Assembly (NCBI GenBank): GCA_027579435.1
Contig: JANBPK010000845.1
Coordinates: 62,001-126,000 of the forward strand
Direction: 5' to 3'
Length of the DNA stretch: 64,000 nucleotides
DNA from: Candolleomyces eurysporus
Lineage: Eukaryota > Basidiomycota > Agaricomycetes > Agaricales > Psathyrellaceae
Every line of letters begins with the position of its first letter. Position 1 is the first letter of the stretch. Shown here piece by piece: positions 2,235 to 59,085 of the stretch. A program made the translations under genes and the position numbers. The notes beneath the pieces were generated by a model. The model was not told where the DNA came from and made no database searches. It saw only the letters and a program-made list of their open reading frames with translations.

Positions 2235-4291
2235 ATGTCTTATTTCACTGATGATTCCAATTTCTCAATACGTTCGTCTATCTCATTCAGCAAAGGTACT
2301 CTAATGCTATCGTCTTATCCTGCCGTACACAGTTCGGAGTCTCCTGTACGCTCTACCACCACATGCTACCATTTGGTTGAGACCGATCGAATTTGACCTT
2401 TTCAGATCGATATCCACATCTCGCGTGGGGCGGAAGACAACTACCGTGGCGGAAAATCGATCACAAAGACCGTGTATCGTCAAAATGATTGTCAAGCCCC
2501 TATTTATAACGGTGATATCTCTGACGGTGTCAACGCTTTCCACGAAGGGTCAGCCTTATCGGATCCATGTAAATTAGAAAGGCGCTCATTATCTTCAACG
2601 ATTCAGCGGTGGAATTTACTCTCGGGATCTCATAACCCCCGAGATTCGAGAAAGCCATTAGCGCAGGCAATGATGTGCATATGCCGACTTATCGTGTTCA
2701 CGTTAGCACACCAGACTTCGTTCCCTCCCCTACCAGTGAGGCCAGGAGGAAGAATCGCATTCTACAAACAAGTAATTCAGCCGGTAGTTTTGTTCTTCCA
2801 ATCTCTTGGCAATCGAGACATCCTTATCCACCCACCCACTGCCTGAAGAGACTGGTGCCATAGCGAGCAACGGTTCCGATATACCAGTTCAACACGACAT
2901 AGAGTACCCTTCCCCCCNAGAATGATGACGGCCACATGCGGAGCTTGCCGATGAGGAGTCTGGCGACTCAGAGAATAACAACGAAGCATTATCCACAAGC
3001 GCCTCTGAACAGTCTCAAAATGATCACACTATAGTGCGTATATTATCTTCTGCATACACCTCGGGGTTGTGAATAACGCTGCCATGCTGATTAGGCATCA
3101 ATGAGCGACCTCGAACCACGGCCACAACAATCCCAAGTAACGACGAATGTAGAAATATATACGCGACGTATGCTCTGTTGCCTGCCGTGCCGGCACCCAC
3201 GACCCTCTCCACCAATGGGGCAAAGAGGCATTGTGCCAGGCGATGTAGGCACTTTCAATCACACCCACGGCTTTAGGAAGCTGTTCAATCTTTAGGAAGA
3301 CGATTGGGCGGATGGCCTTGGAGAACTGCCACCTAGGGGAACGACCACACATACCGACTACTTCTCAGAGGAGCATACTATCCAGAGTGGTGCTTCTTCA
3401 AAGATTCGAAGGTTGGAGGATGGAAGGTATGTTCAGGGTCGATGTTGATCCGAAACGTATCGTCCAAAGTGATGTGGTGCATTTCGAATTTCAATGCAAC
3501 ACTGAACAAGGTGCCGTTCTGGCATGCATCACATCAGCGGATCTGGAGGAGCTGAACAATACTGTCGCCCTCGAAAATTTTCTGATCCAGCATGCCGGGG
3601 CCATTCACCACAAGGGAAGTAATGTGATGCCACTTGGCGAAGACGAGTCCCTGTATATCGTGACCGGATGTATCAAGCGCGACGGCTGGGGTACTGCAGC
3701 CTATCACGATGCTATGGTAGGTGATATCCTCAAACTCTCAAAACGATTTGCGAAGGACAACAGCCACGACAAAGGTAGAATCTACGATTGGGTTGACCGG
3801 GGAACGGCGGAGGCTCGACTTTGGCCCAACACGGTCAAGGAAGCGGGTCTGCATCAAGGGAAAACCCGCAGCCTGTTTCTTCGAGGGTTCAAGCTGGCCT
3901 TTTCGCCTGCATTCCGTGCGCGAGTGAACCATGTGGAGCATCCTCATGCAGATTATGGTTCTTCAGGTAATGGTGGTAAAGAAGCAGGTGGGCCTGCTGA
4001 CGACAACACCTACCCCCCAACTTGTTCGGCCTTGATTATCCTCCTAGGCTGCCTGTTCCAAAGCCCAAGGCATGTCTAAAAAGGAAAGCAACGCAAACGA
4101 GACGCGCAAATGATGAATCGTTGAATTTTGAGCTGAAGCGAAGGAGGGCTGTTTGGGGAGAACCTCAGGCCGAGGTATGGATGCGCAGCATCAAGGAGAG
4201 TGTTTCGCTGAGTGTGAACGACACCCAAGGTTATAGACCAATCTCACCCCCTCCTGAAGAACTTGGGCCATTCCTTCGTGTCAGGCCATAA
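2235..4291 (+). CDS. Motif gene A: N/G-rich motif plus large uncharacterised fungal domain
   Basis: This is a multi-exon gene whose exact splicing I could not close. A possible first exon begins MSYFTDDSNFSIRSS at 2235. The family motif is at 2472-2540 (VYRQNDCQAPIYNGDISDGV). Around 3150-3300 there is a block ending GDVGTFNHTHGFRKLFNL. Around 3350-3390 is DYFSEEHTIQSG, and 3640-3930 contains DESLYIVTGCIKRDGWG, then DWVDRGTAEARLWPNTV and LFLRGFKLAFSPAFRARV. From memory, blocks of the type GDVG..FNI and LYVVTGCIK..WG recur in uncharacterised Agaricomycete proteins. Gene B on the minus strand at 32-33.4k has the same order. A basic C-terminal block follows at 4022-4291 in another frame, so an intron or frameshift lies near 3965-4055. 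A single N at 2918 falls inside the gene. Function unknown. Confidence 0.62.
2472..2540 (+). other. N/G-rich family motif, copy in gene A
   Basis: The translation VYRQNDCQAPIYNGDISDGV continues NAF. It aligns residue for residue with the copies at 41.89k, 42.11k and 52.78k. The 35 residues upstream (from DIHISRGAEDNYRGG) also resemble the region before the 41.89k copy. Confidence 0.8.
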
Positions 4292-4977
4292 GGAACTTTG
4301 TTAGGTCTCGATTAATTCCCCACCACATTTCAGTTTTGGAAGGATTCATGTCTGTCATGATGAGAAGCTTTCCTGGTACAGATTCCTTGGGTCTTTCGTC
4401 CAAATCTCATGTATAATCGCTAGCATCCTCAGGTCTCAATTCAGAGGTGGTTGTCATTTCAAAGTTGGTTCCGGCACCTGGCCTTGCTAGTGCTAGTCAT
4501 GGACAATGATCCGTGGAGACAATGGCTTTCGACTTTCGTCTTCCTTCACGCTCCGAGCGATTGTTGTAAAGCCGAAGAGTTAGAGATGGGAGAATGAGAG
4601 GGTTTACCCGCCATGTACCTGGGTGTAAAAAGAACAAAAAGAAAGAAAAGAAAGGAGTTTCACACGCTCAAAAGGAGAGCTTGTCATGACAAAAATGGAA
4701 CTATATATACTAAAAGTCTGTGGAGTAAATAATAGGAGTTTGTGAAACGGATGATGAAATACTGGAGTGATGAGAGCATCGACATAATAATACTCAACAT
4801 GTCACGCACTAGGTTGATTCCCAAAAAGCAAGTGCGCGTCAAGATCGAATAGTACTACTACATAAATAACTCAAAGGATGTAATTTACATTGTGGGTGAG
4901 GCGTTCTGCCGGTTCGAGCTCGCCTATTATCGGCCCCCTTGCAATCAATCCTCTGTTTGCACTATCCGTAAGGATTC
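4292..4977. other. Intergenic, no gene seen
   Basis: A purine-rich stretch lies at about 4629-4656 and an AT-rich stretch at 4680-4870. Short open frames here have no protein-like character. Confidence 0.4.
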
Positions 4978-5616
4978 TTACATAGAATTGTGCAGCGTTC
5001 TATGTCGTACGTGCCTTGACAATCTGGTTGGTGACAGCGCCGGGATGTACGGATTGCTCGCTTGCGATCTTCGCCTACAACACGCCGTCACTTCTGTCGA
5101 TGGGCTCCCTCCAAAATGGCGCTGGGACATCTGTAATCGAAATTTGATTAGTATTTCCCAGAACACTGGCATTTGAGATTGTGACGCCGGGTGTGTCAGA
5201 CTCGATGACGGACTTTGCATTGTCAACGCCATAGGGGCACCGATAGCCAATGAGTGGGGAATGTCGCCTGCGGCCTGAAGATCGCGCACTCCCTCCAAAG
5301 GCTGGACCTGGTTTGCATCGCTGGTTAGAAAGGCTGGGAATGGCTGGTTCTCGGCAGCAAATATATGAGATGACATCTTGGCATTCTCGAGCTCTGTGTA
5401 AATCAGTTCTTTGGATGCACCAATGTTACTGACTTTTTCCCAAGACTTGGCATACGCAGCTAGGACCTCTGGAGCGATGTGGAATCTCGTCTCACCATCC
5501 GCTGTACAGTTCCACTCTTGGGAAAAGGCTTCGAAATTGATTTTTTGTCTTCCACTTACAGCTGCCATCTCGGAGAATGAGCAGAACTTTGTAAAGAAAT
5601 ACTCTCGTGCATCCAT
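4978..5616 (-). CDS. Uncharacterised ORF with a transposon-neighbour type domain
   Basis: An open frame runs from ATG at 5616 (MDAREYFFTKF) to a stop at 4978, 212 aa. The first 100 residues are well formed: KINFEAFSQEWNCTADGETR, then EVLAAYAKSWEKVSNI. From memory, the pattern WN.TADG..R....EVL..YAK.W occurs in basidiomycete proteins found beside DNA transposons; I cannot name a family. The C-terminal half (HFGGSPSTEVTACCRRR and on) looks less conserved and may be out of frame. Assigning it to a mobile element is inference. Confidence 0.45.
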   Translation of the reverse strand: MDAREYFFTKFCSFSEMAAVSGRQKINFEAFSQEWNCTADGETRFHIAPEVLAAYAKSWEKVSNIGASKELIYTELENAKMSSHIFAAENQPFPAFLTSDANQVQPLEGVRDLQAAGDIPHSLAIGAPMALTMQSPSSSLTHPASQSQMPVFWEILIKFRLQMSQRHFGGSPSTEVTACCRRRSQASNPYIPALSPTRLSRHVRHRTLHNSM

Positions 5617-5689
5617 AGTTGTTGGAGAAAGTACAGGAAGCACCAGTGCTTGGCGTTTGCGTAGCCAGTCATCGCTAGCGCTACCGGAA

Positions 5690-5835
5690 GCTGCTCATTG
5701 TTTGGGACGAAGAATTCGCAGGGATGCCGGAAACGCCCACCAAAGCGACCCGACAGCTCGGCGATCACTTTCCCAAAGGCCATACTATTGTGTGTGGCAC
5801 TTATTCGACGGTCTTTCCGTCATCAGATGAAAGGT
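5690..5835 (+). pseudogene. Relic of the gene A/B large domain
   Basis: The frame around 5730-5828 reads MPETPTKATRQLGDHFPKGH and then TIVCGTYSTVFPSSDE, followed by a GTGAGT donor. At the DNA level the block CCCAAAGGCCATACTATTG is almost the same as 32655-32690 (minus) in gene B. In gene A the matching protein block is DYFSEEHTIQSG. No other part of the domain is recognisable nearby. Confidence 0.5.
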
Positions 5836-5839
5836 GAGT

Positions 5840-6655
5840 TTAAGATATACGCTAAAATTCACGTTTACTGACTGTCAATATTCCGGGGCCAGCTACGTGG
5901 AGTAATTTGAATTTCCTCGCATCCCCGAACGATCTTGTGGGTACTTGAGCTCATCTGAGGCGTGATTCGCTAATCTAAGTCGGCAGGTATCGTAGGCAGG
6001 CTATCCCGGGAACCTTTGCGACTCACCCATTGTAGCGTTCAGCGAGTTCGACTTGTATGAGAGGAACTTGGATGAGAGGAATTCCGTACCACATTCCACC
6101 CACGCTTCCTTTCCTGGACTTATGACCCTCTTGCGGAAATCACAAGCCTGTCTTTGTCTTATCTTTGGAATCCGACGTCGAGCCCTCTAAATTCGGGTGC
6201 GTGACCCAGCCGTTCAAGCTGTTGACAGGTCAGATCTTGCCGTTGACCTAGCTAGAGAAAGGTAGAGATACATTCTGGTTAGTTGGGAGGACTGTTTCCA
6301 ATGTCATCGAAGGAAGTAACGGCACCGAACTTTACTCGGAAGGATAGTTCAGTTCGACTCAGCCTGCGATTCACAACTACCAAGATTCTCTAAGTACGTT
6401 TATGAAGCCGGTAAACTCACATTCGTCGGGAGAAGAGATAATGATTAGGACGAGACAGGCAATTCGCCATATTTCTATTGGAATGAGTGGCAAAGTCCCA
6501 AATGGCCTCAATTGTTTAGCATCCCGTTTTCAAAAAANGGTGAAGACCAGAAATGGAGTCTTGAGGAAGAATCATGCTCCTCCCAGGGGCACAGGCTATG
6601 CCTGTCAAATTCATGAATTCATGTCACGCTAACTTCATCTCCGCAGTACTCGCCC
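5840..6655. other. Gene-free stretch
   Basis: I see no supported gene. A single N sits at 6538 next to a run of A. Possible splice signals near 5987 do not lead to a recognisable exon. Confidence 0.35.
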
Positions 6656-6689
6656 GTGGAGCCATTCGGTGACACCAGCCGCGTAAATC

Positions 6690-6885
6690 GGGTGAAATCA
6701 GTTAGATACAAGGTCACCCTGAGTTCGATTTCAATTTCAAGGCATGCTCGTCTTACATCAGTTGAATTTTCACTTGACTACAAGGTCACCCTGAGTTTGA
6801 ATTCAATTTCAAGGCATGTACATCCCGTGTCAAGTAGAATTCCGGTTGGATACAAGGTCACCCTCAGTTCGGATTCAATTATTCT
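6690..6885. repeat. Tandem repeat, three units of about 72 bp
   Basis: The core TACAAGGTCACCCTGAGTT, continuing into CAATTTCAAGGCATG, starts near 6706, 6779 and 6851. The units are diverged, and the third is cut short after CAATT. They translate as YKVTLS repeats in one frame, but no gene is evident. Confidence 0.8.
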
Positions 6886-6899
6886 CTCGGTATGGTAAA

Positions 6900-7880: not shown

Positions 7881-7910
7881 AGCTCTTGACCCGTGCTACG
7901 CACGCTAGCA
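7881..7910 (-). mobile_element. Possible Helitron 3' terminus
   Basis: Read on the minus strand, a hairpin (GTGC-GTA-GCAC) is followed by GGGTCAAGAGCTAGT. Helitrons end in a short hairpin followed by CTRR, and CTAG fits. A second similar hairpin at 8067-8083 is followed on the minus strand by a CTGG. The assignment is supported by the Helitron-like ORF just upstream on the same strand. Confidence 0.4.
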
Positions 7911-7921
7911 TTCCATTCCTT

Positions 7922-8556: not shown

Positions 8557-8880
8557 CGCAGTCGGGAGATTGCGACATAGTCAGGCTTGAAAGCTTGGAT
8601 CGAGGCGTAGCCAGGCTTGAAAGTTGAGATCACGGCGGTTTTCCAGGCTGCAATCGTCGATTTTCCAGGCTGCAATTGTCCATTTTGCAGGCTGCAATTG
8701 TCGATTTTCCAGGCTGCAATTGTCAATTTTCCAGGCTGCAATCGTCGATTTTCCAGGCTGCAATTGTCGATTTTCCAGGCTGCAATTGTCGATTTTCCAG
8801 GCTGCAATCGTCGATTTTCCAGGCTGCAATCGTCGATTCCAGCGCCCGCGAGAGCTTCGACGTTTTACTAGTTTGATGTG
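8508..8880. repeat. Dispersed repeat, second copy, expanded by an array
   Basis: This region has the same flanking blocks as 7922-8045, but with about 230 bp of extra sequence between them, mostly the 22-nt minisatellite. Confidence 0.7.
8638..8837. repeat. 22-nt minisatellite, about nine units
   Basis: The unit is TTTTCCAGGCTGCAATYGTC plus GA. About nine head-to-tail copies vary at only a few positions (C/T in ATYGTC, one GCAGG variant). ORFs read across it (CSLENRQLQPGKSTIAAWKID type) are artefacts of the repeat. Confidence 0.92.
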
Positions 8881-9118
8881 ACTTGTGTGACATGCGGGGC
8901 AAATGCGGGGTAAGGATACGCCGCTCCGAAAAAAAAAAAAGCTGTGGTATATGCACCAAATGCACTTTGGCCAGGCCCATTGGGAGGTAAAATCTCATTT
9001 TTATTTACAAGAATCAGCTTCAGCTCTTGGATCAAAGCTGCAGTGATCCCTCCGGCCAGTATTCATCATTCACCCCTCTCGTTTTCGAACCCAACATCTT
9101 GCGTTTGCTCATCACCCG

Positions 9119-9768: not shown

Positions 9769-9776
9769 CCGCTTTG

Positions 9777-10030: not shown

Positions 10031-10039
10031 ACCCAGTTT

Positions 10040-14302: not shown

Positions 14303-14918
14303 CTAAAACCTGCGGTTGCGTTGACCTCCCTGAAATGTTCCATGACATGCATCCGCATGTCGAGACCCTTGAGCTACAGAAGGCAATGAAGCAGTCCTTG
14401 GTCGCCCTGGGTGAGGGCTGTAGCCTGGGAACTGCGATACGAAAGGCAAATGCGGTGGTAGAGGAGGGGGTGAACTGCTGAGAGGAGGATAGATATAACG
14501 TGCCCAGGGGTATGCGGACGCCGCTGCCACTGCCGCTTGTTGGTGGGACTGGAGGAGCCAATGCCTGATGCGCGCTGTTCAAAACACATATGAGTGGTGG
14601 ACAATAAAGAGAAAGATCATGGTACATACCATCAACATCCTGAGGGGATTCATCCGCGGCTCTCTCCACCGCCGCACGGGACGTATGTCAGAAGGTGTAC
14701 TCTCCGTCTATGCGTAAAAAGGTCAACTCACCAGAAGGCATTTGCGACTGCTCCGAGCAAGAGTTGGAGGCCGAAGCATCCGTTTTGCTGAGGGTGGGCC
14801 CGAACGTACGATCTGCCACTCCATTGTAGTACGTGCACACCGTGGAGTTGATTGTTCCATTGTAGACGGCACCGCAGTTGTTTTGGTTGTACACGACGGT
14901 GTGAGGTGTAGAAGTCAT
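14303..14918 (-). CDS. Motif gene K, with Pro/Tyr-rich tail
   Basis: Exon 1 starts at ATG 14918 and ends at 14732 before GTGAGT. It encodes VVYNQNNCGAVYNGTINSTV then DRTFGPTLSKTDASASNSCS. A short middle exon gives the segment with DESPQDVD, and the last exon gives HWLLQSHQQAAVAAASAYPW, then YIYPPLSSSPPPLPPH and GTFQGGQRNRRF, stopping at 14303. The middle exon is 2 nt shorter than its counterpart in L, which puts a TGA in frame, so the copy may be newly broken. It is convergent with the DUF1996 remnant and gene X upstream. Confidence 0.6.
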
Positions 14919-20974: not shown

Positions 20975-21599
20975 TCAAAACTTGCAGTCGCATGCGCCTC
21001 CCTCAGCTGCACTGCGGCATGCATCCGCATGTTGATGCCCCTGAATTACAGAAGGAGACGAAGTGGTTGTCGGCTGCCCTGGGTGAGGGCCGTAGCCTGG
21101 AAAAAGTGACGAGAAAGCCGTATGTGGTGGTAGAGGAGGGGAAGAACTGCTAAAAGGAGGATAGGCCAAGCGAGTCCAGGAGTACGCAGACGCCGCGGCG
21201 ACGATGGCTTGGTGATGGTGCTGTAGGACCCACTGTCTAATGTTTGCTTATCAAAAGCACACGTTAGTGGTGCAGGGTAAAGGAAACGATGGTGGTGGTA
21301 CCGTCAACGTCCTGAGGGGATTCATTGCTGCGGTCTTCTACGTGGCCGCAGAGGAAGTATGTCAGAAGGCATACCCTTTTTTATGTTTGTCAAAAGGCAG
21401 ACGACTCACCAGGAGGCATTTGAGTTTGCTGCGAGCCAGAATCAGGGCCCGGCACGTCTGTTTTGCTCAGGGTGGGCCCGAACGTACCATCGGCCACTCC
21501 GTTGAAGTACGTGCAAACCGCGCTATTTATTGTTCCGTTATAAACGGCACGGTTGTGTTGTTGGTTATACACGATGGTACTCTGAGGTGGGGAGGACAT
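20975..21599 (-). CDS. Motif gene L, with Pro/Tyr-rich tail
   Basis: ATG at 21599; exon 1 ends at 21410 before GTGAGT (phase 1). It encodes STIVYNQQHNRAVYNGTINS then TFGPTLSKTDVPGPDSGSQQ. A 36-nt exon gives the segment with NESPQDVD. The last exon gives QWVLQHHHQAIVAAASAYSW, then LAYPPFSSSSPPLPPH, FPGYGPHPGQPTTTSSPSV and AEGGACDCKF, with a stop at 20975. It is very like K and J. The phase into the last exon does not close by hand. It is convergent with the DUF1996 and X relics, as in the other modules. Confidence 0.62.
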
Positions 21600-22703: not shown

Positions 22704-24739
22704 CTATTCTTCGGCGACTGAGGTTGAGGGGGGCGGCGACTTCCTCCAATAAGGCTGCAGCAACCAATGCGGCATAACTTCAAACCCTGTATTCGGGTCG
22801 ATCGTGATAAGGTCTTTGAGTGGTATCGTCCCTTCTTTCGTAGCTTCCCTTTCGGTTTTCTGCGTGGGGAGGAGTCGATGTTAGTGTCGTGCTCGGCTGG
22901 GGTTTTTTGAAATCAAAAGGAAAGAAAATGGAGATAGAAATGTATGGGAAGTGAAGAAGGGAGGACTCTTTGAAAGAATGGGGGAGGGAGAAGAAACGGA
23001 GAAAAGGGAGAGATGTACAGAGGAAGCAGGGAAGGTTGGGAAATGAGAAATGAAGATGGGCCGCGCGGATAGACAGAGAGACAAGAGAGGCGAAAAATGA
23101 ACAGGCGGAGCTGAGCAAAGACAGTAAGAGAAATGGGCGAAATCGAGTCAAGCCCAGAGAGCAGAACGGACGAAGAGAGAAGCAGAAAAGGGGAAAAGAA
23201 AAGGAAATCACTAACCTCCATCCTCTCCTTTAACTCCTCGCAGATCTCCACGTACTCTGCTAACCACCCACCCCAATCCGCTTCGGCTTTCGGCCGCTCA
23301 CCGACCTTGGCCCTGCCTAACCGTTCTCGTAGATCCACCTCCTTAGTGAGTGCAGGTAGCAAGATTTTGAATAAATGACCTTTGACAGCGCTGACGCAGG
23401 TTCTGGTCTTGAGCGATTTGACGATGGATATGTACTCGAGTGCGATATCAGCTGAGCGCGGATGTCGAAGCAAGATCGAAGAGTCAGAGTAATAACCAGG
23501 ATGAGACGGGTGAGCAGGGTGCGTTGGGGGTATTATCGAAATCGGTATTGAAGACTGGGAGGAGACGGATGGCAACGAGCCTGATATCAAAGTGGCTGTT
23601 GGCATCGACGAAGGGAGGGCTGGAGTAGATGGAGCGACGAAAGGCGTTGGCAACGTCTCAGGTAGTCCATTGAACAACGCAACGTTATACAAGTTGCCTT
23701 CTGCACTCATCACCGCATCGCACCCAGTCTCTTCTAGACATCGCAGAATGTCGGATTGGAACAGGATGTTGCCGTTGGCGAAGACGGGAACGGAGACGGA
23801 TTGTTTGACTGCGCGGATTTTTTGCCAGTCCGCTACACCCTGGAATAATTCAATCGATTCAGTTACTCTTCTGAAGCCGGTGGAGCGATAAATGGAGAAG
23901 GTAGAACATACGGTATTCTGGCCCCGTTGTTCACGTAGTCGACCGTGGCATGTAAGAATCTGGGCACCGGCGCGTTCGAGCATCTTGGCATACTCCACGG
24001 TCTTTTCTATCGTTGGAAAGACCCGGAATTTTGCGGTAACGGGGACGTTGAGGTTTTCATGGAGGGTATTGACTGCGATGGGCAATTGGAGGTCAGTTCA
24101 GACGCAAAAGAGAATGCATGATTGAGGTAGATTGAAATGGAGAGGGCCAATGGGATGGGTAAGAAGGAAGACGAGAGAGATGAATCGTACTCACTCAGCG
24201 TGTATATCAGCTCCCACTCGTCCTGCAAGAAACTCCCATAATGACCCTTCTTCGCAATATCCTGGGGACAGCCCAAATTCAAATCCACAGCATCGCAATA
24301 CGATTCGAGAACTTTGGCAGAGGTCAGCAGTTGCTCTGGATTGTTGGCGCAAAACTGCACGATCAAAGGCCGGTCGGTCGAGGTGTCTCCCTCCTCGCCT
24401 GAAGGTATATCAAAGTTTGCAGAGCGGAACGATTTGTTCGTAGGATCCATGAACATTTTGGCGTTGATCATGGGGGTGTAGACAAGTTGAGCACCATAGC
24501 GCCGTGAGAGACGCCTCCAAGCCTATAAAATCGTCACATAAAATGATGAGAAAATGGCCAGGGCAGAATGAGAGACGAACGAACCTACGTACCAGCTCAC
24601 TCTGATCTACCATAGGTGCCACGACATACTTCGGACTGCCGAGCACTTCCCTGTAGAGCTCGTACCCTGAAAGCTTCCTCCTGGTGGTCTGAGTATCCGC
24701 TCCTGTCGAAGACGACGTCCCTGGCGCTGATGGCTCCAT
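22704..24739 (-). CDS. DUS1: tRNA-dihydrouridine(16/17) synthase
   Basis: Exons on minus: 24739-24593, 24522-24195, 24072-23912, 23839-23216 and 22859-22704. Phases close to 471 aa. It reduces uridine to dihydrouridine at tRNA positions 16/17 with FMN and NADPH. Landmarks: [20 protein letters not shown] at the start of the TIM barrel, [21 protein letters not shown], the catalytic-Cys block [76 protein letters not shown] and [16 protein letters not shown]. The C-terminus ends with [16 protein letters not shown], typical of the family. The frame stays open upstream to 24970 without an ATG and is Arg/Ser-rich, so an upstream start in another exon is possible. It is divergent from NOPCHAP1. Confidence 0.93.
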
Positions 24740-25239: not shown

Positions 25240-26119
25240 ATGAGCACGACAGATTCTGTGACCTCGGCTTCCACATCTTCCCCATCCTCTCTCTCTGGGC
25301 TACCCAAGTTCGATTTTGGCGATCGAGCAATACCAGAGTTTACGCCGAATACTGAACGTATGTCGCTTCGAACACTTCGAGACGACTATGCAAACTGACG
25401 CATCATGTTTTCTCATCATGATCATAGTGCTCGGCAGGATTCAAACCTTTCTCCCCCAGCTTGAAGCATCCAACCGGGCGCTACTCCAACGTGCTCAGGC
25501 CGATCCATCGAGTGTCGATATCGAGAATGTGGATGAGCAGGGAGAGGGAGGGTATATCGAAATGGTGCGCGTTATTCTTCCTTCCTTAACCTTGTGTTAT
25601 TAAAACCATTCACCCCCTTCGTGGTGATAGAATCTCGGTCTTGGTGTCTACGAAGAACGACGGCAGAGGAAGCGAGAAGAATCAGATGACAATAATGCTT
25701 CGATGCAAGATGGGGAAGAAAACATGGAAGATGTATCATCCGACGGAGACGACGACGAGTCAGACTCAGATTCGAGTTTGACCTCGGACTCAGACTCGGA
25801 CTCGGACTCAGACTCCTCCACAACAGCAGCGGCTGACCCTGTCTCATCGTTTTTCAAATCCCTACGCGATCGCCGTCGTACAACGAACTCATCTTCCTCC
25901 TCATCCTTCTCCTCCTCCTCATCGTCATCATCCTCCTCTTCCTCATCCAGCTCAGACTCCGACTCCGACTCGGATTCAGACTCGTCTTTTAGCAGAGGCC
26001 CCACCATTCCTGTTGCCGAACGCCACATCAAACCTCTACCTAGACGAACGAGGAAACCGCCCTTCATCGAAGTTATAGGCGAGTCGACGAACACCACTGG
26101 TGTGTATCTCACAGTATAG
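25240..26119 (+). CDS. NOPCHAP1: DUF4598 / NOP protein chaperone 1-like protein, copy 1
   Basis: Exons 25240-25357, 25428-25564 and 25631-26119; phases close to 247 aa. The conserved core is LLGRIQTFLPQLEASNRALL then AQADPSSVDIENV and GYIEMNLGLGVYEER (residues 40-93), the DUF4598 signature. In animals this family helps load NOP58 during box C/D snoRNP assembly; I infer the same role. After the core come an acidic Ser/Asp tract (SDSDSDSD) and a poly-Ser tract, then a basic tail with PLPRRTRKPPFIEVIGESTN. A nearly identical second gene is at 33833. The product is expected to be nuclear or cytoplasmic; there is no signal peptide. Confidence 0.85.
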
Positions 26120-26560
26120 CTTCTCCAAATTTCCTATCTGAACCTCAATCTTCCTCCAGCCGACCCCCAACCATGAATTACAAGCATATGGGCCTTTCCT
26201 ACGCGTCGTTGAAGGGTCAGCACAATCCATAGCTTTCCTCATCCTACGGGTCCACAGCCCAAGATGAAGTGGCATCCCTCTGGACGGGGAGCTCGGATGA
26301 CCTCTAGCATCGTAAGAGGTAGTAGGATATGACACCGTTTCTTTGTACGCATGAGGCGCTAGCGATGGCGTCGAAACTCGCAATCCACGTGCATTGGGGG
26401 ATGGGAATGCAGGTGGACTGGGCGTCGCCGAGGTGGCGAGACTGCTCCAATTCTCGCAGGGTGCAGGGTGCGCTCATTATGTTTCTATCCACCGGACCTG
26501 TGTAGCATTTAAAATGAACCCGAATTCATTACAATCACGACCGGACGGAGGCAAAAGTAT
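26120..26560. other. Duplicated 3' flank of NOPCHAP1
   Basis: The flank aligns with 34717-35100. A minus-strand frame in both copies reads ASFDAIASASCVQRNGVISY here and TSFDVVASVSCTKQNGVGSY at 34.9-35.0k. It may be a last exon of a gene not otherwise resolved. Confidence 0.4.
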
Positions 26561-30727: not shown

Positions 30728-31511
30728 ATGACCATGTCCAATTCCTCTGCCCTCATACTTAGCTCTTGTCCCTTCCCCGAGTCAGCTGCAGGCCACCCAT
30801 CCCTCCTGATGCCCTGTTCTATCTACAATCAACGGGGCTGCAAAGCACCGATCTTCAACGGTCGGGTTAACGGCGGTATCAGGATGTTCACCGGAGGGTC
30901 CGTCAGATACCCAGTCTCTGTCCTCACAGCGGGGATGTCCCACCATGAAACGGGTCAACCACAGGAGGATAGTGAGTAGATTTTACCTTTTACTTGATAT
31001 TCACTGTCAACTGACGGCTTTTTGGCTCAGCAGAGACAATACACCTATCTGGAATCTACCTTCAGGATGGTGCCGAACAGTCAATATACAACGGTGACAT
31101 CAACGAAGTTGTGTTCATGCACAAGGATACCCATGTTACCTTTGAGGACTCTTATTCAGGAGAGAATAGTTCATCTCGGAATAGTGAACGAAGAGGTAGC
31201 AATGGGCATGCCCGTGAGTCTGTTATACCTGACGTCTCAGTAACGACGGCTGATCGGCTGATCAATTCTCAACTAGGCCATGGTCAGTTGGGGGACTATA
31301 AGAACCTGGGGCACCCCACTCGTGCAGCAGATAGTCGTGAGTGCATTCCAAAGATTGTTCTTGCTTCATGGCTCTACGGGTATCTGACACATCCCTTGCC
31401 ATCGTATCAGACCTTAAGAGGCGTCTAAGTGCCCATCTCTCTACTATCATCCGACTCTTTCGTTTCATCCGGTTCTTGAGGTCCATAGTGTCCCTCCTTC
31501 GCCTACTGTGA
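30728..31511 (+). CDS. Motif gene I: two motifs and a basic amphipathic C-terminus
   Basis: Exons 30728-30971, 31031-31336 and 31411-31511; phases close to 216 aa. Motif 1 is SIYNQRGCKAPIFNGRVNGG (30818-30877) and motif 2, after the first intron, is IYLQDGAEQSIYNGDINEVV (31056-31115). A Ser/Asn-rich linker follows (SYSGENSSSRNSERRGSN). The second intron (GTGAGT to TATCAG, with a CTGAC branch-like site) brings in 33 C-terminal residues made almost only of Leu, Ile, Phe, Arg and Ser, for example STIIRLFRFIRFLRSIVSLL. If that intron is not spliced the frame ends at 31428 instead. It is convergent with gene B. Membrane activity is inference. Confidence 0.68.
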
Positions 31512-31958: not shown

Positions 31959-33449
31959 TCACTTTTTTCCTCGCTCTTGCTTTAGTTTGCCTCGCTTGTT
32001 TGCTGCGGAACTACTTCCAATCAAACCAGATCGACTACTGCCTGATGGTTCCGGTCCAGAGGAATTCAGCCTGCCTTCCTCTTGTCCCGTCGCTGGGGCC
32101 CGCAGGCTGCTCATGAGCCGAGTACGAGCTGCGGACGAGAATGCTAGCGTAAATCCCCGAAGAAAGAGGGTATGGGCTTTTCCATCATCCAGATTCGCCT
32201 CTTTAGCTGTGTTGGGCGACAAAAACGCCTCTCCTGTCCCTCGATCGACTCAACCATACAACTTGCCTTCGCCAGAACTAGTATCCCCACTGAATTTTTT
32301 TGTGAGCCTAAGGACCTGTTCTTGCATTCCATATTGATAAGTGGAAAGTCCCCAACTTGCACTCTTGATACATCCAGTCACAACGTAGAGAGAATCATCT
32401 GCTACCAGCGGTTCTACCAAATACGCGCGCTTGTAAATGTCCTGCGCATATTTGAGCAAATAGTCTTTCAGTGCACACGGGCTTTTCAGCCACCAGATCT
32501 GCTGGTGAGGTCCATGCCAGTACTGCACCTTCCTCACTTTTACAATCGAACTCGAACAGCTCGACCGATCTAGAGGGATTATTTTAGCATCAACCCCTGG
32601 TGGGACTATATTTAACGTACTGTCCATCTGGTGACCTCCGGATCCTCGAGAAGGCGCCACTCGCAATAGTATGGCCTTTGGAAAAATGACTGCTGCAGAC
32701 TCAAACAGTCGTGCCAGGGTGGACTTCACGCGGAAACACACCGTACCCCTCGTCCCAGATATTGCCACCACACCTGATCTCCTGGATGGTCCTTGCTCCG
32801 TGGAATATTACACATTCCATCATTTCGCCGACTCGTGCCTTGTCAGCCAAACTGACCACCGTAACCACAACCCTGCTAGACTCGGAGAGGACGACCACCC
32901 GAGCCGTCGGCGCTGTTGGAAGGTGTTGCATACCCATGCTGGGCATTATTAAAGGGACGACGTTGATGTATACGTAGAGAAGTACCGTCCCTCGCGAGTG
33001 TCCTGTGAAGCTAGTCGTCCTCGACAGGCTCAGTGTATATCGGCCCGTCATGGAAGTCTATCGATAGGTTGGGTTAGCATATAACTCAAAAGAATGTCTA
33101 GGAATGATTTACAGCGACGCATATCCCGGTCGGTAGACTCATCCTGCGGGGTATGTTGATCACAAGGGTATTCGCCTGCGATTGTTGAGATAATCCAGTC
33201 GCTCAGAATCAGTAGAAAAGAGAGCGAACCACCATTATGACAAGTGCTCTCAGGCCTGACCAAGCTCTCCAAGCCCTCAGGTACTCGGTCATACCCCTCA
33301 ACATATGCATTTGTGTAGTTATCCACAAAACCCACACCTCCCTCGTTAAACACTACTCCTTTGTTACACTTCTGGTCAATGACCGGACCTTCGTGACCCT
33401 GTTGAAGCCATTGTGCTGAAATTTGAACGCGAGTGAGGATAATTAACAC
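31959..33449 (-). CDS. Motif gene B: N/G-rich motif plus large uncharacterised fungal domain
   Basis: The 5' exon seen (33430-33200, minus) has the divergent motif GPVIDQKCNKGVVFNEGGVG, then EGYDRVPEGLESLVRPE; the latter recurs in gene H as GYDRVPEGVAILLERRG. Further on, 32690-32655 encodes HFSKGHTIASGAFSRIRRSP (gene A: HTIQSGASSKIRRLED). Then come DDSLYVVTGCIKSASWGLST, WVDRGTGEAFLSPNTAKEA and LFLRGFTLAFSSAARTR, with a stop at 31959. Order and spacing match gene A. Several introns are needed and not all junctions were resolved. The true start must lie upstream, but the NOPCHAP1 duplication begins at 33567, so the 5' end may have been lost or displaced. Function unknown. Confidence 0.62.
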
Positions 33450-33566: not shown

Positions 33567-35540
33567 AAATGCTTCTCGGGCCGAGTGCTCCGACCTGTCT
33601 GCTGGTTCGCATTTTCTGCTTTGCTCTTTGTCCGCCTTGCATCACTCCCGGCTCTGCTCCTTCTGATACTTGAAGAAAGGATGAAAAGAACACGAAACCG
33701 GAAAAAAATGGACGTAGAAGGGGGAGAATCGCGCCAAAAACGTCTCCGTACGCCTCAGTCGTATCTTTCTCCAGTCCCTCGGCTCATCGAGTTGCATCAC
33801 TTTTCGCTCTCATAGAATCTCTACTGGAACGCATGAGCACGACAGACTCGGTGACCTCGGCTTCCACATCTTCCCCATCCTCTCTCTCCGGGCTACCCAA
33901 GCTCGATTTTGGCGATCGAGCAATACCAGAATTTACGCCGAATATTGAACGTATGTCGCTTCGAACACTTTGAGACGACTATGCAAACCGACGCATCATG
34001 TTTTCTCATCATGATCATAGTGCTCGGCCGGATTCAAACCCTTCTCCCCCAACTTGAAGCAAGCAACCGGGCGCTACTCCAACGTGCTCAGGCCGATCCA
34101 TCGAGTGTCGATATCGAGAACGTGGATGAGCAGAGAGAGGGAGGGTATATCGAAATGGTGGGTGTTATTCTTTTCTTCCTTAACGCTGTGTTATTAAAAC
34201 AATTTACCCCCTTCGTGGTGATAGAATCTCGGTCTCGGTGTCTACGAAGAACGACGATGGAGGAAGCAAGAAGAATCGGATGACAATAATACTTGGATGG
34301 AAAATGGGGAGGAGAACATGGAAGATGTATCATCCGACGGAGACGACGACGACGACGAGTCAGACTCAGATTCGAGTTTGACCTCGGACTCAGACTCGGA
34401 CTCGGACTCTTCCACAACAGCAGCGGCCGACCCTGTCTCATCGTTTTTCAAATCTCTACGCAATCGCCGTCGTACAGCGAACTCATCTTCCTCCTCCTCC
34501 TTCTCCTCCTCCTCCTCATTGTCATCATCCTCCTCTTCCTCATCCAGTTCAGACTCGGACTCGGACTCGGATTCAGACTCGTCTTTTAGCAGAGGCCTCA
34601 CCATTCCTGTTGCCAAACGCTGCATCAAACCTCTACCTAGACGAACGAGGAAACCGCCCTTCATCGAAGTTATAGGCGAGTCGACGAATACCACTGGTGT
34701 GTATCTCGCGGTATAGCTTCTTCGAGTTTCCTATCTGAGTATTCGTGTTCCTCCAGCCGACTCTCAACCGTGAGTTGCGAGCATAGGCCTGTGCTACGGG
34801 TCGTTGGCCGGCCAGCACATTCTATTACTCGCCTTATCGCTATGGGTTCGGACCCCAGATGAAGTGGTTATATTGAACAGGAAGTCGGGACGACCTGTAG
34901 CCCAGTCAAAAGCGTAGGAACCAACCCCGTTTTGTTTAGTGCATGAAACGCTGGCGACGACATCGAAGCTCGTGTACGTGTACAACGGGAAAGGAGCCCG
35001 TGGCGTGGGGGCGGTGCAGACTGCACCAATACTCGCAGGGAGGGTCCACACATTTACATTTATGGACCGATCCACCGGCCTCGGGTAGCATGAAACAAAA
35101 TGTTATTGTTGAGGGATCAAATGAAATCAGAGGGGGAAAAGGACCTCTATGTCACGGCGCAGCACGTCTCGCTGACCCCTGAGGATAGATTCCATTTCTT
35201 CGTCGTTCTTCTTCAAGTAGCCGTTATTACGAAGGTATTCGTAGGCTATGATTTTCTTGGCCATTATACGCCTACTTGCTGAAGCTCGCCCGACTTCAAC
35301 GCCTCCGACTAAGGCAGTCACAGGGTTTTTGCCTGAGCAACCAATTCACTAATGGATGCAAAAGAAAGAGAGACTCACCTAGCAAGCGAACAGTGTGCCT
35401 TCCCGGGTGCGTAACCGGCAGCGGGTCCACCCAATCATATGTGAACCGTACGACATCGTGGAGAATTTGGACGTAGTCTACAACAGAAGATTAATATCGC
35501 AGTTTCGCTGCATTAAGAGACGTGTTCACCTGTAGATGAG
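33567..35540 (+). repeat. Segmental duplication of about 24967-26890 region
   Basis: Direct copy, in the same orientation, of the NOPCHAP1 promoter side, the whole NOPCHAP1 gene, its 3' flank and the end of the next minus-strand gene. Similarity begins abruptly at GGCAAATGC (33563/24966) next to gene B. Confidence 0.88.
33833..34716 (+). CDS. NOPCHAP1: DUF4598 / NOP protein chaperone 1-like protein, copy 2
   Basis: Exons 33833-33950, 34021-34157 and 34225-34716; phases close to 248 aa. Intron positions and the core (LLGRIQTLLPQLEASNRALL, IEMNLGLGVYEERR) are as in copy 1. Differences are mostly substitutions, plus length changes in the Asp and Ser tracts. Both copies keep open frames and splice sites, so both may be expressed. 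A third, decayed trace of the first exon lies at 56.86-57.03k. Confidence 0.85.
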
Positions 35541-41739: not shown

Positions 41740-42701
41740 ATGTCCGGACGCCAGATACACCCCATGCCAATTTTGCAGAACGCATCTCACTTTTCTCTAG
41801 AGAATCTCCATGTTAGCAACGTCCAGGGCAACTATTATGATCGCCGCGTGTACAAAACTGCCAACGACAACTCAGTCTGTAATCGGACGGTGTACCACCA
41901 AGAGGGCAATCAAGGATCCATCTTCAACGGCGACATTACGGGGGGAGTAAATACGTTTTTTGGGTCGGTCGTTACGTATTCGGCAGGCCAGCCTCATAGG
42001 CCTTTGTCCAACCAACCGAGAGTGCGATCACAGAAGAGTCGGTCGATCCTGCTTATCGAGAGATTCGTCGGCTTACACATCGCTCTTTCAGCAAATAAGA
42101 GACGAGCGGGGGTATACTACCAGCAGAACTGTCAAGGCGCCATCTTCAACTGCGACATTCAGGGCGATATCAACACATACAACGACACGGACGTATTATT
42201 TGGTGACGAGTCAGATGGTCATAATACTGTCGCCCGTAAGTCGATCCTGTTCTATTAGCCATTCGCAACTGATTCGCAACCGGGATGAGGGCGATAGGCC
42301 AAGCCAAAAAGAGCAGCGACCGCCGCAAAAGCTACAGGAAAGAGGAGGGTATTCGCTCTAGTCAGGTTTCGGAATACCGTGAGTACATCGCATGCATTGT
42401 CCGCAAAATATTGTCGCTTGACATGTTCATTGATAAACGAATATAGAATATAACGACGGTAACGAATACGGCGCGACTGGGGCTTGGCGTGAACCACGCA
42501 ATGTCCGAGACGACCAAGGTGAGCGTCAGAGTTTATCTAAGGGCTTTCAGACCTGACACAAAACAATCTGTTTAGTCCCTGATTTGTATGGTCCACAGGA
42601 GAGAATTTTCTCTTTCCCCTCAGCGCCACCTCCAGGTGTAGCGACCCCGTACCGATCTCGTCCCCACCCGAATACTACAGATCGAACAGAAAGGTGATGA
42701 G
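41740..42701 (+). CDS. Motif gene C: two motif copies and Pro-rich tail
   Basis: ATG at 41740. The first 173 residues are open: MSGRQIHPMPILQNASHFSL, ENLHVSNVQGNYYDRRV, then motif 1 TVYHQEGNQGSIFNGDITGG (41887-41946) and motif 2 YYQQNCQGAIFNCDIQGDIN (42115-42174). A donor (GTAAGT at 42237) follows. Later exons include EYNDGNEYGATGAWREPRNV before GTGAGC and, after a TTTAG acceptor, LYGPQERIFSFPSAPPPGVA then TPYRSRPHPNTTDRTER with a stop near 42701. The opening resembles gene E (ASHFSMERVNLNTYHGDYN), and the tail resembles the Pro-rich tails of D, E and F. It is uncertain whether the sequence between the motifs (41960-42090) is exon or intron. Confidence 0.65.
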
Positions 42702-47058: not shown

Positions 47059-47865
47059 TCAGGGGCCGTAAACGCCTGGTGTCGGAGGGAGCGAGGGTAA
47101 AAAATGAGGGTACGTCGCAGATGGAGGTGATGGATATGAGCCGCCATAATTTAAATTTGGAGCAGTTGGCGATCCAGGCGTGAAAAGAACGGGCTCGGGC
47201 ATTGTCACTTGTCTTTGGGGTCTGCTGAGCGTCGCTACCGGGTCTACATTGAATCCTCCCACCCAGACTTCCTGTATATAGGGCGCATCGCCCCATTGAG
47301 AGCTGTTGGAAGCAGTACCATGAGGCGAAGGTAGGGAATCTAATCCAGATATCCGTACAGGTAAACTGGGGTCCCCAGAGCGAGAGAAAGCTAGCTCACT
47401 GAAACGGCGATAGCCCTGATAATTTTGGTCATTTACCTGGGCGTTTAAATCGTTTCCCTGGTCTAGAATGAGTCAAAATGAGGCTTAAATTGTGAAGAAA
47501 CAAGCAAGATGCTATAGGCGTACAGTGAATCCTCTGGTGCTCTGTGTAGTGGCCAGGCTCTGTTGTAGCCCGCTCAGCGTACGAAGGCCGTCCGTCTAAA
47601 CACAATATATCAGTGATGGCGTTAAGACAGATTCAACAATCAAAGGAGACTAACAAGGCGACAATGGCGTTGAAGCGGCGGTATTCACCTCCATATCCAT
47701 CCTCGGTGGGCAAGACTCCGTGCGAGGCTGACGTTGACCGTGCTGCATTGTCACGTTTCCTGAGATAGGGCCGTTGCAAATAATACCTTGGTTACTTCCT
47801 TGATCGTAAAAAGTGCGGCGGTCGTTGTATTCGCCGTTATAAGTGTTATGAGAGCCGTTTTCCAT
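47059..47865 (-). CDS. Motif gene D, with Pro-rich tail
   Basis: ATG at 47865: MENGSHNTYNGEYNDRRTFY then the motif YDQGSNQGIICNGPISGNV and PRTESCPPRMDMEVNTA. The exon ends near 47655. Small exons follow (RPSYAERATTEPGHYTEHQR and DQGNDLNAQ). The last exon contains QNYQGYRRFSELAFSRSG, PYIQEVWVGGFNVDPVATLS and FTPGSPTAPNLNYGGSYPSP, ending SLPPTPGVYGP at 47059. The C-terminus is close to gene E (PSIFPSPGFYPY). The motif has Cys where others have Phe/Tyr. No signal peptide or transmembrane segment. Confidence 0.62.
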
Positions 47866-50399: not shown

Positions 50400-51029
50400 A
50401 ACCACTCACCATTTCTACCTATTCTGCTGTTGTTGTTTTCACCCCGACGCTCGAGTAATATAGCGACACCCTCAGGGACTCGATCATAGCCCTGAAGAAG
50501 CAGAGCACCTTTGTAGTGTTTCAGTGTACCATCGACATTGCCGTTAACTAGAGATGCCTGGTTCCCTCTCTGGTCAAGAATCAGTTTCCCGGAGCGTCGC
50601 TCTGACAGCTCTTCCACTAATATCGAAAAGACAGTGGGATGTAAGGCCTTGTTATATCTGAATATCAATGGACTCACGCAAAGACTTTCCCTGAGAGGTG
50701 TCTGAGGAAGGCCCAGGGGCAGGCTCGCCTCCACCCTCGCCACAACCTGGGTTTTTAGCCATCACTATTGTGTCGAAAACAGCCACGTTACCGTGGACAT
50801 GGCCGTTGACCAAGAGTGCCCCGTTGTCCCTCTGGTTGATCACGGTGGCGTAGTTGGAGGAGTCATCCTGTGCGCTGGCCATGCGGTAGTTGTGATGATG
50901 GCCTCTAGATCGACGGGGAAAAACTTGGGGGCGGACACTCTGGGTGTTGCTCATAGTAGTGAGGTCGGAAGATCCATCCCGGTCAGGGCGGCTGTGTCTC
51001 GATCGATGCTTATTGCGGTCCGCAGGCAT
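50400..51029 (-). CDS. Motif gene H: two divergent motifs
   Basis: Exons on minus 51029-50678 and 50616-50410, joined in phase 1 (KSL plus LEELSERRSGKL), with at least one more exon. The start is basic and His-rich (MPADRNKHRSRHSRPDRDG). Motif 1 is YATVINQRDNGALLVNGHVH then GNVAVFD (50857-50772). Motif 2 is LILDQRGNQASLVNGNVDGT (50590-50530), followed by GYDRVPEGVAILLERRG, a block shared with gene B (GYDRVPEGLESLVRPE). The two motifs differ from the main group in having L/V-N-G in place of F/Y-N-G. No recognised catalytic domain. Confidence 0.6.
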
Positions 51030-52660: not shown

Positions 52661-52663
52661 AAT

Positions 52664-53077
52664 TCACTTACTCCCCTTGACCCGCGTTTTCGAAGACGCT
52701 GGGAAAGCCCAGGGTTCCCCCACCGAGGCTACGATAGTCCCACCACCATACGCAGTGACACCGCCCGTGATGTTACCATTGAAGATTGATCCGCAGTTAC
52801 CCTCTTGGTGGTACACTGTTGAATTATGTACTGAACAGTCGTTCACACTTGCGGACCATCGAGCGTTGGACCTGGCACGGCCTATGGACGGGTTTTTGCT
52901 TATTCCCATTCCGTGCACACCTGACTTCGTGCCTTGTTCCACGCGATGGACGATGCAAGTCGCTGAAGGTAGAGAAGGTGGGTATGAAGTTTTGGCGCCT
53001 TCGTTGTTTGCTCTAGCACGCACGTTATATAGATATCGATACTTGTATAGCAGTGCAAGACGTTTGGAGGTGACCAT
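52664..53077 (-). CDS. Motif gene G (partial)
   Basis: An open minus frame contains TVYHQEGNCGSIFNGNITGG (52818-52759) then VTAYGGGTIV. This is nearly the same as motif 1 of gene C, including the preceding ND.SV.N.TVYHQEG. The exon reaches a GTAAGT donor near 52669. The upstream 60 residues are not similar to other members and the start is not certain. No tail exon was found, so it may be a fragment. Confidence 0.5.
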   Translation of the reverse strand: MVTSKRLALLYKYRYLYNVRARANNEGAKTSYPPSLPSATCIVHRVEQGTKSGVHGMGISKNPSIGRARSNARWSASVNDCSVHNSTVYHQEGNCGSIFNGNITGGVTAYGGGTIVASVGEPWAFPASSKTRVKGSK

Positions 53078-53955: not shown

Positions 53956-53956
53956 T

Positions 53957-54800
53957 TCAGTATGGGTAGAAACCTGGAGATGGAAAAATAGACGGCGAGG
54001 GAGTGGGCATCTGACGATGTGGAGGCGAGGTAGAACTCGGAGATGGGCCACCGTAATGGGTCGGAGCAAGTGCAGCAACTGGAAATCCAATGGGACCGGG
54101 TACAAGTAGCTGCCCTTGTTGCCCGTGAAATGCTTGTTCCGGCGGTGAGGCGCAGCTGAATCCCCCAGGCCATGTTGGTGCTCGAGCAGGATTCTTGGGT
54201 AGTGGACTCGGGACTACCGAGGCAGTTGGAGAATGGCCGGGTGGATACCCAGGCTCTGATACAGGTGAGCTTATAGCTAAATCTCGAGGTCTGAAGTGTG
54301 AACACGACATACGGTGATTGATTTGAGTCTCCTCGTAGAAGTCGTCCTCTTCATCCTCCCCATCTAGGAGCGAGTACAATTAAATTTTATACTGCGCGGC
54401 GATTAACGAGAGTGCATACAGTCACTACTCTGATACCCGTGGTCATAGGCGGGCCGTACAGCGGTTGACTGAGCGTGATAATTTTGCGGATCTAGTACCG
54501 TTACTCTTCATCGATCGAGCATTCAACGATGAACAAATACTTACCTGATGGCCATGGGGACAGAGCGGGAGTCTGCATCGCCGAAGGCGCAGTATTTATG
54601 CGTGGAGGACGCTGTCGGCCATTGTGGTGCGTAGTCGCCCCTCCAGCGACAGATCCGTTGAAGATAGGACCCCTGCTGTCTGGCTGATGATACATGGTTG
54701 GGCTGTTGTTGTAATCACCGTGGTAAGTGTTGAGATTGACTCTTTCCATGGAGAAATGGCTGGCGCCGTGACCGATTGAGATATTAGGTGGTGCGGACAT
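53957..54800 (-). CDS. Motif gene E, with Pro-rich tail
   Basis: ATG at 54800: MSAPPNISIGHGASHFSMER, VNLNTYHGDYNNSPTMYHQP, then the motif YHQPDSRGPIFNGSVAGGA and PRINTAPSAMQTPALSPWPS before GTAAGT (54543). A middle exon has PQNYHAQSTAVRPAYDHGYQ, then an acidic exon has DGEDEEDDFYEETQINH before GTATGT. The last exon has SEPGYPPGHSPTASVVPSPL, FPVAALAPTHYGGPSPSSTS and ends PSIFPSPGFYPY at 53957. The exon order matches gene D. No signal peptide. Confidence 0.66.
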
Positions 54801-57705: not shown

Positions 57706-57709
57706 AGGT

Positions 57710-58620
57710 TTAGATCGCAACCGGAGAAGAGGAGCCAACAATGTAGCGCTTGAATGGGTTTTTATCACTAATCTTATCGGCAGCAATACCGCCAGTAGTA
57801 GGAGCGCCGCAGCTCAATGCCATCGAATGTCGAGGTGACCACCCATCGTCCGATTGGCCGCTCCTTACACTATGAGCAGTGTACATCGTATCGTGGCAAG
57901 GAGAGCGATGACACGGCGGAGCAGTCGGGGCATGCTCAGCCGTCCAGGGATCCGAATTTTGGCGTTGGAACGGGTAGTGTGGTGGGTACTGGGCAGAGTA
58001 GGGCTGCTCGTGGTATTCGGAAGGAGGCGCCCTGAGTGGACCAGGGAAGTCTGAGCGATAAGATAAGAAGAGCGACAGCAGGAGGGGTTGCAGATAAACA
58101 ACTGACACTGTGGATAGCTGGGGTATCTAGGATCGTACTGTTGGCTATACTGGCTAGTGGCTGTCCCTTGTCCTGATGAAACCCATGAATACAAATTTCT
58201 AGTAGACGATAAGGCTGTGAGCGGGAGCTTACGGCTGGGCATGCCACTATATGAATAAGAACGGCTGTAGTCAACTGGTATGAATTTTGCAGCGGCTTTT
58301 CAGTTCAATGGGAATCAATTAGTTTTCATTCCAAGAAATCCCGCTTTACTACTCACTGGGGGGTAGTGGGGTTGTTCAAGCAGCGGAGGAACAGACCAGT
58401 GAGGCTTAGGGTTCATAACCCGCTTACGAGACCTGACTCCATCCTCAATGGCTTCGAGCGAGTGAGTCTCAGTCGACTGGTGGCGATTTAAAATATTGAT
58501 GTTCGTTGTTGAATTGTCGGTCCGCTCGTGATACGTTCGAGAGTCGGTGTAGCTTCCGTGGTTTTCCGTAAAACTGACTCTGTCGAGTTTGGCGTTTGCG
58601 CCGTTAAAAGACACGTTCAT
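57710..58620 (-). CDS. Motif gene F (degenerate motif) with Pro/Tyr-rich tail
   Basis: ATG at 58620: MNVSFNGANAKLDRVSFTEN, HGSYTDSRTYHERTDNSTTN then EAIEDGVRSRKRVMNPKPHW, ending before GTGAGT (58360). The layout G.Y.D.RT follows genes C and D, but the F/Y-N-G core is replaced by NINILNRHQS. A second exon has RSYSYSGMPSRKLPLTALSS and SQYSQQYDPRYPSYPQ. The last exon has RAPPSEYHEQPYSAQYPPHY, PFQRQNSDPWTAEHAPTAPP and ends KRYIVGSSSPVAI at 57710. The family assignment rests on architecture. Confidence 0.52.
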
Positions 58621-58979
58621 AATGGCTGCGCAACGGTGTCGACGTTGGAATCAAAGTGACAGGAGAGAATGGAGCGCAACGAGAGGAGTGAGGATTGACC
58701 CTCGGAGTGGTAGGGAGCCAGAGGCACAAGATGGCATTTGTAGACTTAATTTATGTGCAGAAGATGGGATCTCCCTCGCCGTAGCAGATTCTATTCGTCT
58801 CATTGGGAGTTGATAACAATGAGAATGCCCTTGAAGTGGTATTTTTTGTAATTTCGCTACCAAATTAGGAGGGCATCAACGCATGATGACATGCGTAGTA
58901 CCATGTCTGGACGCCCATGGTGCCCCGGGTTTATTGCCTTACTTCTTTGCCTGAGCGTCTACTCGACATCCTGAAGGCA

Positions 58980-59085
58980 ATGCCACTTGGTTCCAAATGC
59001 TTGGTACACGGTTCGAAGCGGTACAAGCTGCGCCGGATAAGGTTTGACTGACGGAATAAACGTGTTTGAGGACTACGGCGGCTCC
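58980..59085 (+). pseudogene. Relic of an N/G-rich motif exon
   Basis: LTDGINVFEDYGG (59044-59082) resembles ISDGVNAFHEG of gene A. The preceding DNA (CAAGCTGCGCCGGATAAGG) aligns with the CQAPIYNG coding DNA but is frameshifted. Confidence 0.4.

Follow-up and report, generated by a model that had tools for sequence, protein, structure and literature searches.

A short protein motif, here called type 2, recurs throughout a 64,000-nucleotide stretch of the Candolleomyces eurysporus genome (contig JANBPK010000845.1, positions 62,001 to 126,000; the whole stretch is hereafter the window). Elsewhere in the genome, it occupies the first exon of receptors belonging to one clade of NACHT-bearing NOD-like receptors (NLRs), and it is also carried by unrelated proteins. 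The first-exon position on NACHT proteins, the existence of non-NLR carriers and the matches of a profile built from NLR copies only make type 2 well supported, by architecture, as an NLR-linked homotypic signalling cassette. As the plug between such receptors and their partners, type 2 appears to be a good candidate.

Motif family in the window and the genome

The type 2 consensus is Y-x-Q-x-x-x-x-[GA]-P-I-[YF]-N-G-x-I-x-G-G-V. The window was scanned in six frames, scoring ten conserved motif positions, with 20 mononucleotide shuffles and the reversed window as controls. A score of at least 8 was reached at 12 places in the window, against one place in the 20 shuffles together, and the reversed window contained no place with a score of 7 or more. 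Lower scores were common in the pooled shuffles (31 places with score 7 and 472 with score 6). To the 12 places we added 31063(+), with a score of 7, and 21566(-), with a score of 6, the latter a paralogue of 14888 and 9152; the candidate 4966(-), with a score of 7, was discarded as a chance match. This yielded 14 copies at 11 loci (Table 1, which gives the copy labels used in the text). An iterated profile, whose seeds were partly window copies, matched 13 of the 14 at E < 1, five of them via identical loci; the weakest copy, 33374(-), was unmatched. Among close copies, differences at codon positions 1, 2 and 3 numbered 117, 113 and 280 (48 non-independent pairs), a third-position excess that is expected for a constrained protein segment. 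None of 10 motif-bearing open reading frames (ORFs) of the window had a Pfam match at the curated cut-off. The motif family is real and chance is excluded as its source. The dispersed family described in an earlier note on this DNA is therefore borne out, far above the level of shuffled sequence, except for a degenerate copy placed at 59.0 kb, where the six-frame scan found nothing with a score of 6 or more. A small conserved tail, GYD[RE][VL]PE, was observed behind some copies (33374(-) and 50572(-) in the window and L020 1784 outside it).

The motif is not confined to the window. In the whole genome (65.85 Mb, 1296 contigs, with the window lying in the contig labelled C1133), a DNA pattern of the core gave 106 matches, compared with 19 for the reversed pattern, and tblastn gave 55 matches with a window copy and 31 with an NLR copy as the query. 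The matches listed, which for the DNA pattern are an incomplete set, collapse to 120 distinct type 2 places, comprising 34 in the NACHT clade, 10 in a family labelled VTGC (see below) and 76 in neither. Of the unassigned places, 49 are known from the pattern alone, and chance matches must be among them.

Two first-exon types in one NACHT clade

The earlier note had proposed looking for the motif on NACHT proteins, and this search was positive. In the first such loci seen (L035 and L067), a motif exon is followed by a P-loop NACHT domain; behind the type 2 exon of L035, Pfam recognised NPHP3_N (E 1.1e-20) and NACHT (E 3.2e-7). A genome search with the L035-type NACHT domain returned 150 matches, of which 107 rows were used after excluding second or partial pieces and those below approximately 50% identity. 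A type 2 place was located 104-207 bp upstream on the same strand in 33 of these 107 members, and no upstream place was found when the motif strand was reversed as a control. Reading 450 bp upstream in 40 of the other 74 members revealed a second short motif, type 1, in 32 and type 2 in eight, with no member carrying both or neither; the type 1 profile used here was seeded with some of the same NACHT exons that were classified. In all, type 2 was present in 41 and type 1 in 32 of the 73 members examined. The length of the motif (about 20-30 aa) and its position in a short N-terminus of NACHT NLRs are those of fungal NLR-associated signalling motifs.

A GAYG/GT splice donor in phase 1 was found in 27 type 1 and three type 2 exons and was not found in five of each type; the second exons start alike. 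Given that the two types were mutually exclusive in the members read and that the second exons resemble each other, types 1 and 2 appear to serve as alternative first exons within one NACHT clade. Repeated swapping between them was also considered. A tree of 34 NACHT domains (19 type 1, 15 type 2) required three changes (2-3 in bootstrap replicates), but a single clade was not rejected (approximately unbiased test, p = 0.105), and repeated swapping is therefore not claimed. The genome contains over 100 members of this clade, with clusters on contigs C490, C207, C526, C155, C1054 and C1142.

Independence of the link between receptors and other carriers

Type 2 occurs on both NLR and non-NLR proteins of one genome, the latter including VTGC, double-stranded RNA (dsRNA)-binding-like and window proteins. 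The similarity between the two sides was assessed with a profile built from 22 NACHT-side type 2 copies, with no window copy among the seeds. This NLR-only profile matched window, VTGC and other non-NACHT copies, with a best E of 1.3e-9 against 0.58 for the best reversed sequence; the test loci outside the window had been selected by motif searches, whereas the window had not. Within the window, eight of the 14 copies were matched at E < 1e-3 (41899, 2481, 54686, 52807, 30830, 42121, 47802 and 9152), 21566 and 50834 were matched more weakly (E 0.056 and 0.18), and 14888, 31063, 33374 and 50572 were not among the matches listed. The view of the earlier note that one motif is shared by otherwise differing proteins was thus confirmed, as NACHT NLRs, the VTGC family and other unrelated proteins all carry type 2.

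Carriers outside the NACHT clade

VTGC is a working label for a family defined by the blocks LYIVTGCxKSxSWGxxAY and SLFLRGFKLAFS (LYIVTGC...LFLRGFKLAF). It had 66 matches in the genome, of which 59 were used and seven partial or remote pieces were excluded; its ORFs in the window lie at 3249-4079 (+) and 32028-32807 (-). In 10 of the 59 members, including the window gene at 2475-4004, type 2 was located 810-934 bp upstream on the same strand, the window gene having the motif 934 bp upstream of its VTGC domain. Reversing the motif strand gave no upstream type 2 place. When the upstream sequence of 20 other members was read, two more type 2 copies (L119 and L123) were found and 15 members matched a type 1 profile that had been circularly seeded; among the three without a counted type 1 match, two repeat others and L125 matched at E 1.5. 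As a separate observation, the family has its own usual short N-terminal motif. The idea that type 1 is common to NACHT and VTGC proteins was dropped because the first profile was seeded with both sides and hence circular, and one-sided profiles fail to find the other side. The VTGC domain itself had no Pfam match over the cut-off in the two window ORFs and in six members, and its matches in the PDB were weak, the best (E 0.013) being to an unrelated enzyme. AlphaFold models of the domain from two window sequences were of low confidence (mean predicted local distance difference test score, pLDDT, 32) and uninformative. A gasdermin-like fold, suggested by a sequence resemblance, was rejected in view of these Pfam and PDB results, and the model was too poor for a fold search.

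Several other carriers combine type 2 with a downstream dsRNA-binding-like domain, namely L027 (C63), L014/L016/L018 (C77 and C947) and loci on C673 and C1116. With introns placed by GT-AG rules, L027 and L014 reached the Pfam dsrm model only below the threshold (E 0.069 and 0.10; 14.2 and 13.6 bits, the cut-off being 23), and earlier hand-joined pieces had no dsrm match. In the PDB, all six matches of L027 were dsRNA-binding proteins (best E 0.0023), namely TARBP2 and Loquacious. Searching the genome with the domain of L027 yielded 13 matches, counted as 12 genes with L027 included, and seven of the 12 had a type 2 place upstream on the same strand when the lists were compared by eye. The distance was approximately 0.27 kb at L027 and 1.16-1.35 kb at the other six; the place on C673 is known from the pattern alone. 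A genome search with the dsrm model at E ≤ 1 recovered none of these seven genes.

A third class of carriers, the multi-cassette proteins, has a type 1-like motif followed by one or two type 2 copies and no recognised domain. Examples are found at 41764-42171 and 54636-54785 in the window and at L010, L011, L012, L020 and L025. A type 1 profile built only from this class ranked NACHT type 1 exons first beyond matches overlapping its own training genes (L110, E 0.007; L090, E 0.01; L118, E 0.028; best reversed match, E 3.6). These matches provide modest support for a link between the multi-cassette proteins and NACHT type 1.

Proposed homotypic signalling and rival explanations

The most likely mechanism would begin with the cassette in the first exon of a NACHT NLR, where type 2 takes the place of type 1. 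Oligomerisation of the NACHT domain would bring cassettes together, and the clustered cassettes might stack into an ordered, beta-rich and probably amyloid-type assembly. This assembly could then recruit or template the same cassette on partner proteins, which would carry out or regulate the response. We put the chances at roughly even that type 2 is such an N-terminal homotypic-interaction cassette, assembling in a beta-rich, probably amyloid-type form to recruit partners. Amyloid would be the likeliest form of the assembly, although it is unproven; like self-assembly itself, the amyloid fold, the direction from sensor to partner and any cell-death output are inferred.

The sequence evidence on amyloid formation is mixed. 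The core is rich in Gly, Asn, Gln and Ile, and several results weigh against amyloid-type recruitment. Proline is frequent in the core (31 of 54), and the strand periodicity of the core was within the range of column shuffles, being as high in 85, 162 and 122 of 500 shuffles at 160, 170 and 180 degrees, respectively. For type 2, Pfam returned nothing above noise and the PDB nothing at E ≤ 10, and AlphaFold models of the tandem region (seven window sequences) were of low confidence (mean pLDDT 46) and uninformative, with a short strand pair only. No HeLo domain exceeded the cut-off in the genome; one MLKL_N and six PigL_N matches were found, with no listed motif place within 100 kb of any of them, in a genome-wide effector search that did not extend to the SesB, PNP_UDP, patatin, Goodbye and gasdermin types. 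The type 2 VTGC genes and the type 2 NLR genes of this clade lie on different contigs, with no adjacent pair when the lists were compared by eye, and no link between the usual N-terminal motif of VTGC proteins and NACHT type 1 emerged from the one-sided profiles. Furthermore, the copies seen were all N-terminal, in a survey in which C-terminal copies were not searched systematically and gene ends were not modelled. Pfam includes models for RHIM and HET-s. No significant Pfam profile match to the RHIM, PP or HET-s families was obtained for type 2, although short motifs can escape profiles. Accordingly, the suggestion of the earlier note that an amyloid-like motif links NLRs to other proteins stands as far as the NLR link is concerned and is not supported as regards amyloid formation, and the HeLo-type carriers that it envisaged did not appear.

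The frequent proline, the unclear beta periodicity and the N-terminal position would all be accounted for by a non-amyloid short linear motif that binds a common protein or confers a shared cell location without self-assembly. We regard this as a possible but somewhat doubtful explanation: the Gly/Asn/Gln/Ile-rich make-up and the tandem copies within one protein fit assembly better, and type 2 interchanges with a short N-terminal motif of a sort described as amyloid-like for the NLRs of Agaricomycetes. The motif might instead mark history rather than interaction, as a mobile first exon without a common function, spread by recombination among duplicated dispersed families. The families are large and clustered, and the exon borders that were found look compatible between the types; the third-position excess of differences and the retention of the same residues on diverged carriers nevertheless make this explanation unlikely. 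We consider it very unlikely that the motif belongs to a folded globular domain, for instance as a single rung of a beta-solenoid. The pattern I-[YF]-N-G-x-I-x-G-G-V, repeated in the multi-cassette proteins, is reminiscent of such a rung, but many carriers show just one copy, encoded by a short first exon, and the database searches and the short, low-confidence strand pair mentioned above give no indication of a larger fold.

A broader extension of the homotypic cassette model would be that two or more exchangeable first-exon plugs of amyloid type wire an NLR network. Receptors of one NACHT clade would then bear either of the two plugs, proteins with several plugs, such as those of the window (1+2+2), would act as adaptors bridging the two circuits, and VTGC proteins would be the executors that have been missing from basidiomycete NLR amyloid signalling, having escaped notice because they combine an N-terminal motif with a domain that has no Pfam model. 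The type 2 proteins with dsRNA-binding-like domains could feed virus sensing into the network in parallel, much as one animal protein couples a nucleic-acid sensor with an amyloid motif. This combined scheme is speculative, and we think it rather improbable as a whole.

Other features of the window

The coordinates of the motif copies and VTGC domains are summarised in Table 1. A gene for a STAND-type N-terminal domain, which the earlier note had placed in the window, was absent from the 30 of 254 ORFs (≥ 80 aa) that were scanned, and the contig had no PigL_N match at E ≤ 0.1; Goodbye-type domains were not part of the genome-wide searches. A dihydrouridine synthase gene (Pfam Dus) in at least two pieces lies at 22916-24522 (-). 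A short tandem repeat at 8611-8881 is readable in three frames (FQAAIVDFPGCN-like). The segments 25391-26133 and 33984-34730 resemble each other and look like a duplicated segment, with weak Nop14 matches that were sub-threshold only.

Table 1. Type 2 and type 1 motif copies and VTGC-family domains in the window
Position	Strand	Copy	Feature	Evidence
2475..2531	+	2481	Type 2 core in first exon (ORF 2397-2846) of VTGC-family gene	NLR-only profile E 5.5e-9 (L077)
3477..4004	+		VTGC-family domain behind 2475 motif, within ORF 3249-4079	50% identity to L031
9149..9202	+	9152	Type 2 core, one of three paralogous loci	NLR-only profile E 4.7e-4
14838..14891	-	14888	Type 2 core, paralogue of 9149 and 21516	Iterated profile E 0.011; not among matches listed for NLR-only profile
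21516..21569	-	21566	Type 2 core, paralogue of 9149 and 14838	Weak pattern score (6); iterated E 0.0022; NLR-only E 0.056
30824..30880	+	30830	Type 2 core, first of two	Iterated match via identical L059; NLR-only E 2.7e-7
31057..31113	+	31063	Type 2 core, second copy of 30824 locus	Score 7; iterated E 1.8e-5
32028..32477	-		VTGC-family domain behind 33324 copy	48% identity; one internal TGA
33324..33380	-	33374	Weak type 2 copy upstream of VTGC-family domain	Score 8; no profile match
41764..41835	+		Type 1 motif, tandem with type 2	Type 1 profile E 3.9e-7 (L009), seeded with same sequence
41893..41949	+	41899	Type 2 core, best copy of the window	NLR-only profile E 3.7e-9 (L009)
42115..42171	+	42121	Second type 2 copy behind 41893	NLR-only E 7.4e-6
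47752..47808	-	47802	Type 2 core, Pro/Ser-rich ORF downstream	NLR-only E 1.8e-5
50522..50578	-	50572	Type 2 core, second of two	Score 9; iterated E 2.1e-3
50784..50840	-	50834	Type 2 core, first of two, divergent	Score 9; iterated E 0.28; NLR-only E 0.18
52757..52813	-	52807	Type 2 core	NLR-only E 7.8e-8 (L013)
54636..54692	-	54686	Type 2 core, Pro/Ser-rich ORF downstream	NLR-only E 1.5e-8
54711..54785	-		Type 1 motif, tandem with type 2	Type 1 profile E 6.3e-9, seeded with same sequence

Comparison with known systems

Homotypic adaptor domains of the death-fold and TIR types provide a precedent for the modular exchange of N-terminal domains between NLR receptors and adaptors. Type 2 resembles them in this exchange; it differs in having about 20 residues and no recognised globular domain. 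The resemblance to HET-s/NWD2 (HRAM) and to PP/RHIM lies in one short motif being carried by both an NLR and a non-NLR protein and in several motif classes occurring per genome. The differences are that type 2 has no Pfam match to such motifs, does not show the PP pattern NxGxQxGxN by eye, is accompanied by no HeLo domain over the cut-off and was not seen in an adjacent NLR-partner pair.

Short motifs common to NLR N-termini and other proteins are described as amyloid signalling motifs of ascomycetes in two studies (PMC9815663, PMC7889193), with published partners carrying the motif C-terminally and unlinked partners predicted for some species. For Agaricomycetes, Wojciechowski et al. (2022; PMC9815663) report that each strain has dozens of NLRs with amyloid-like motifs and seemingly fewer copies on the effector side, where effector C-termini were searched. 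The motifs described there as the NLR05/08/22/29/44 meta-family and NLR20 are like those found here in being short, in occupying short N-termini of NACHT NLRs and in numbering dozens per genome. Some of the type 1 copies also share hydrophobic residues and a G[DN] pair with them, a comparison made by eye against the description rather than with profiles. In contrast to the C-terminal partner search described in that text, the non-NLR carriers in the present genome have the motif at the N-terminus. A literature search, whose coverage excluded figures and supplements, found no description of the type 2 motif.

Type 2 therefore fits the published Agaricomycete picture by its architecture and would add N-terminal non-NLR carriers to it. 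Within one genome, the same motif is found at the N-termini of receptors of an expanded NACHT clade and of proteins for which Pfam has no model, and the outcome is a concrete list of candidate partners for NLR circuits with possibly exchangeable plugs.

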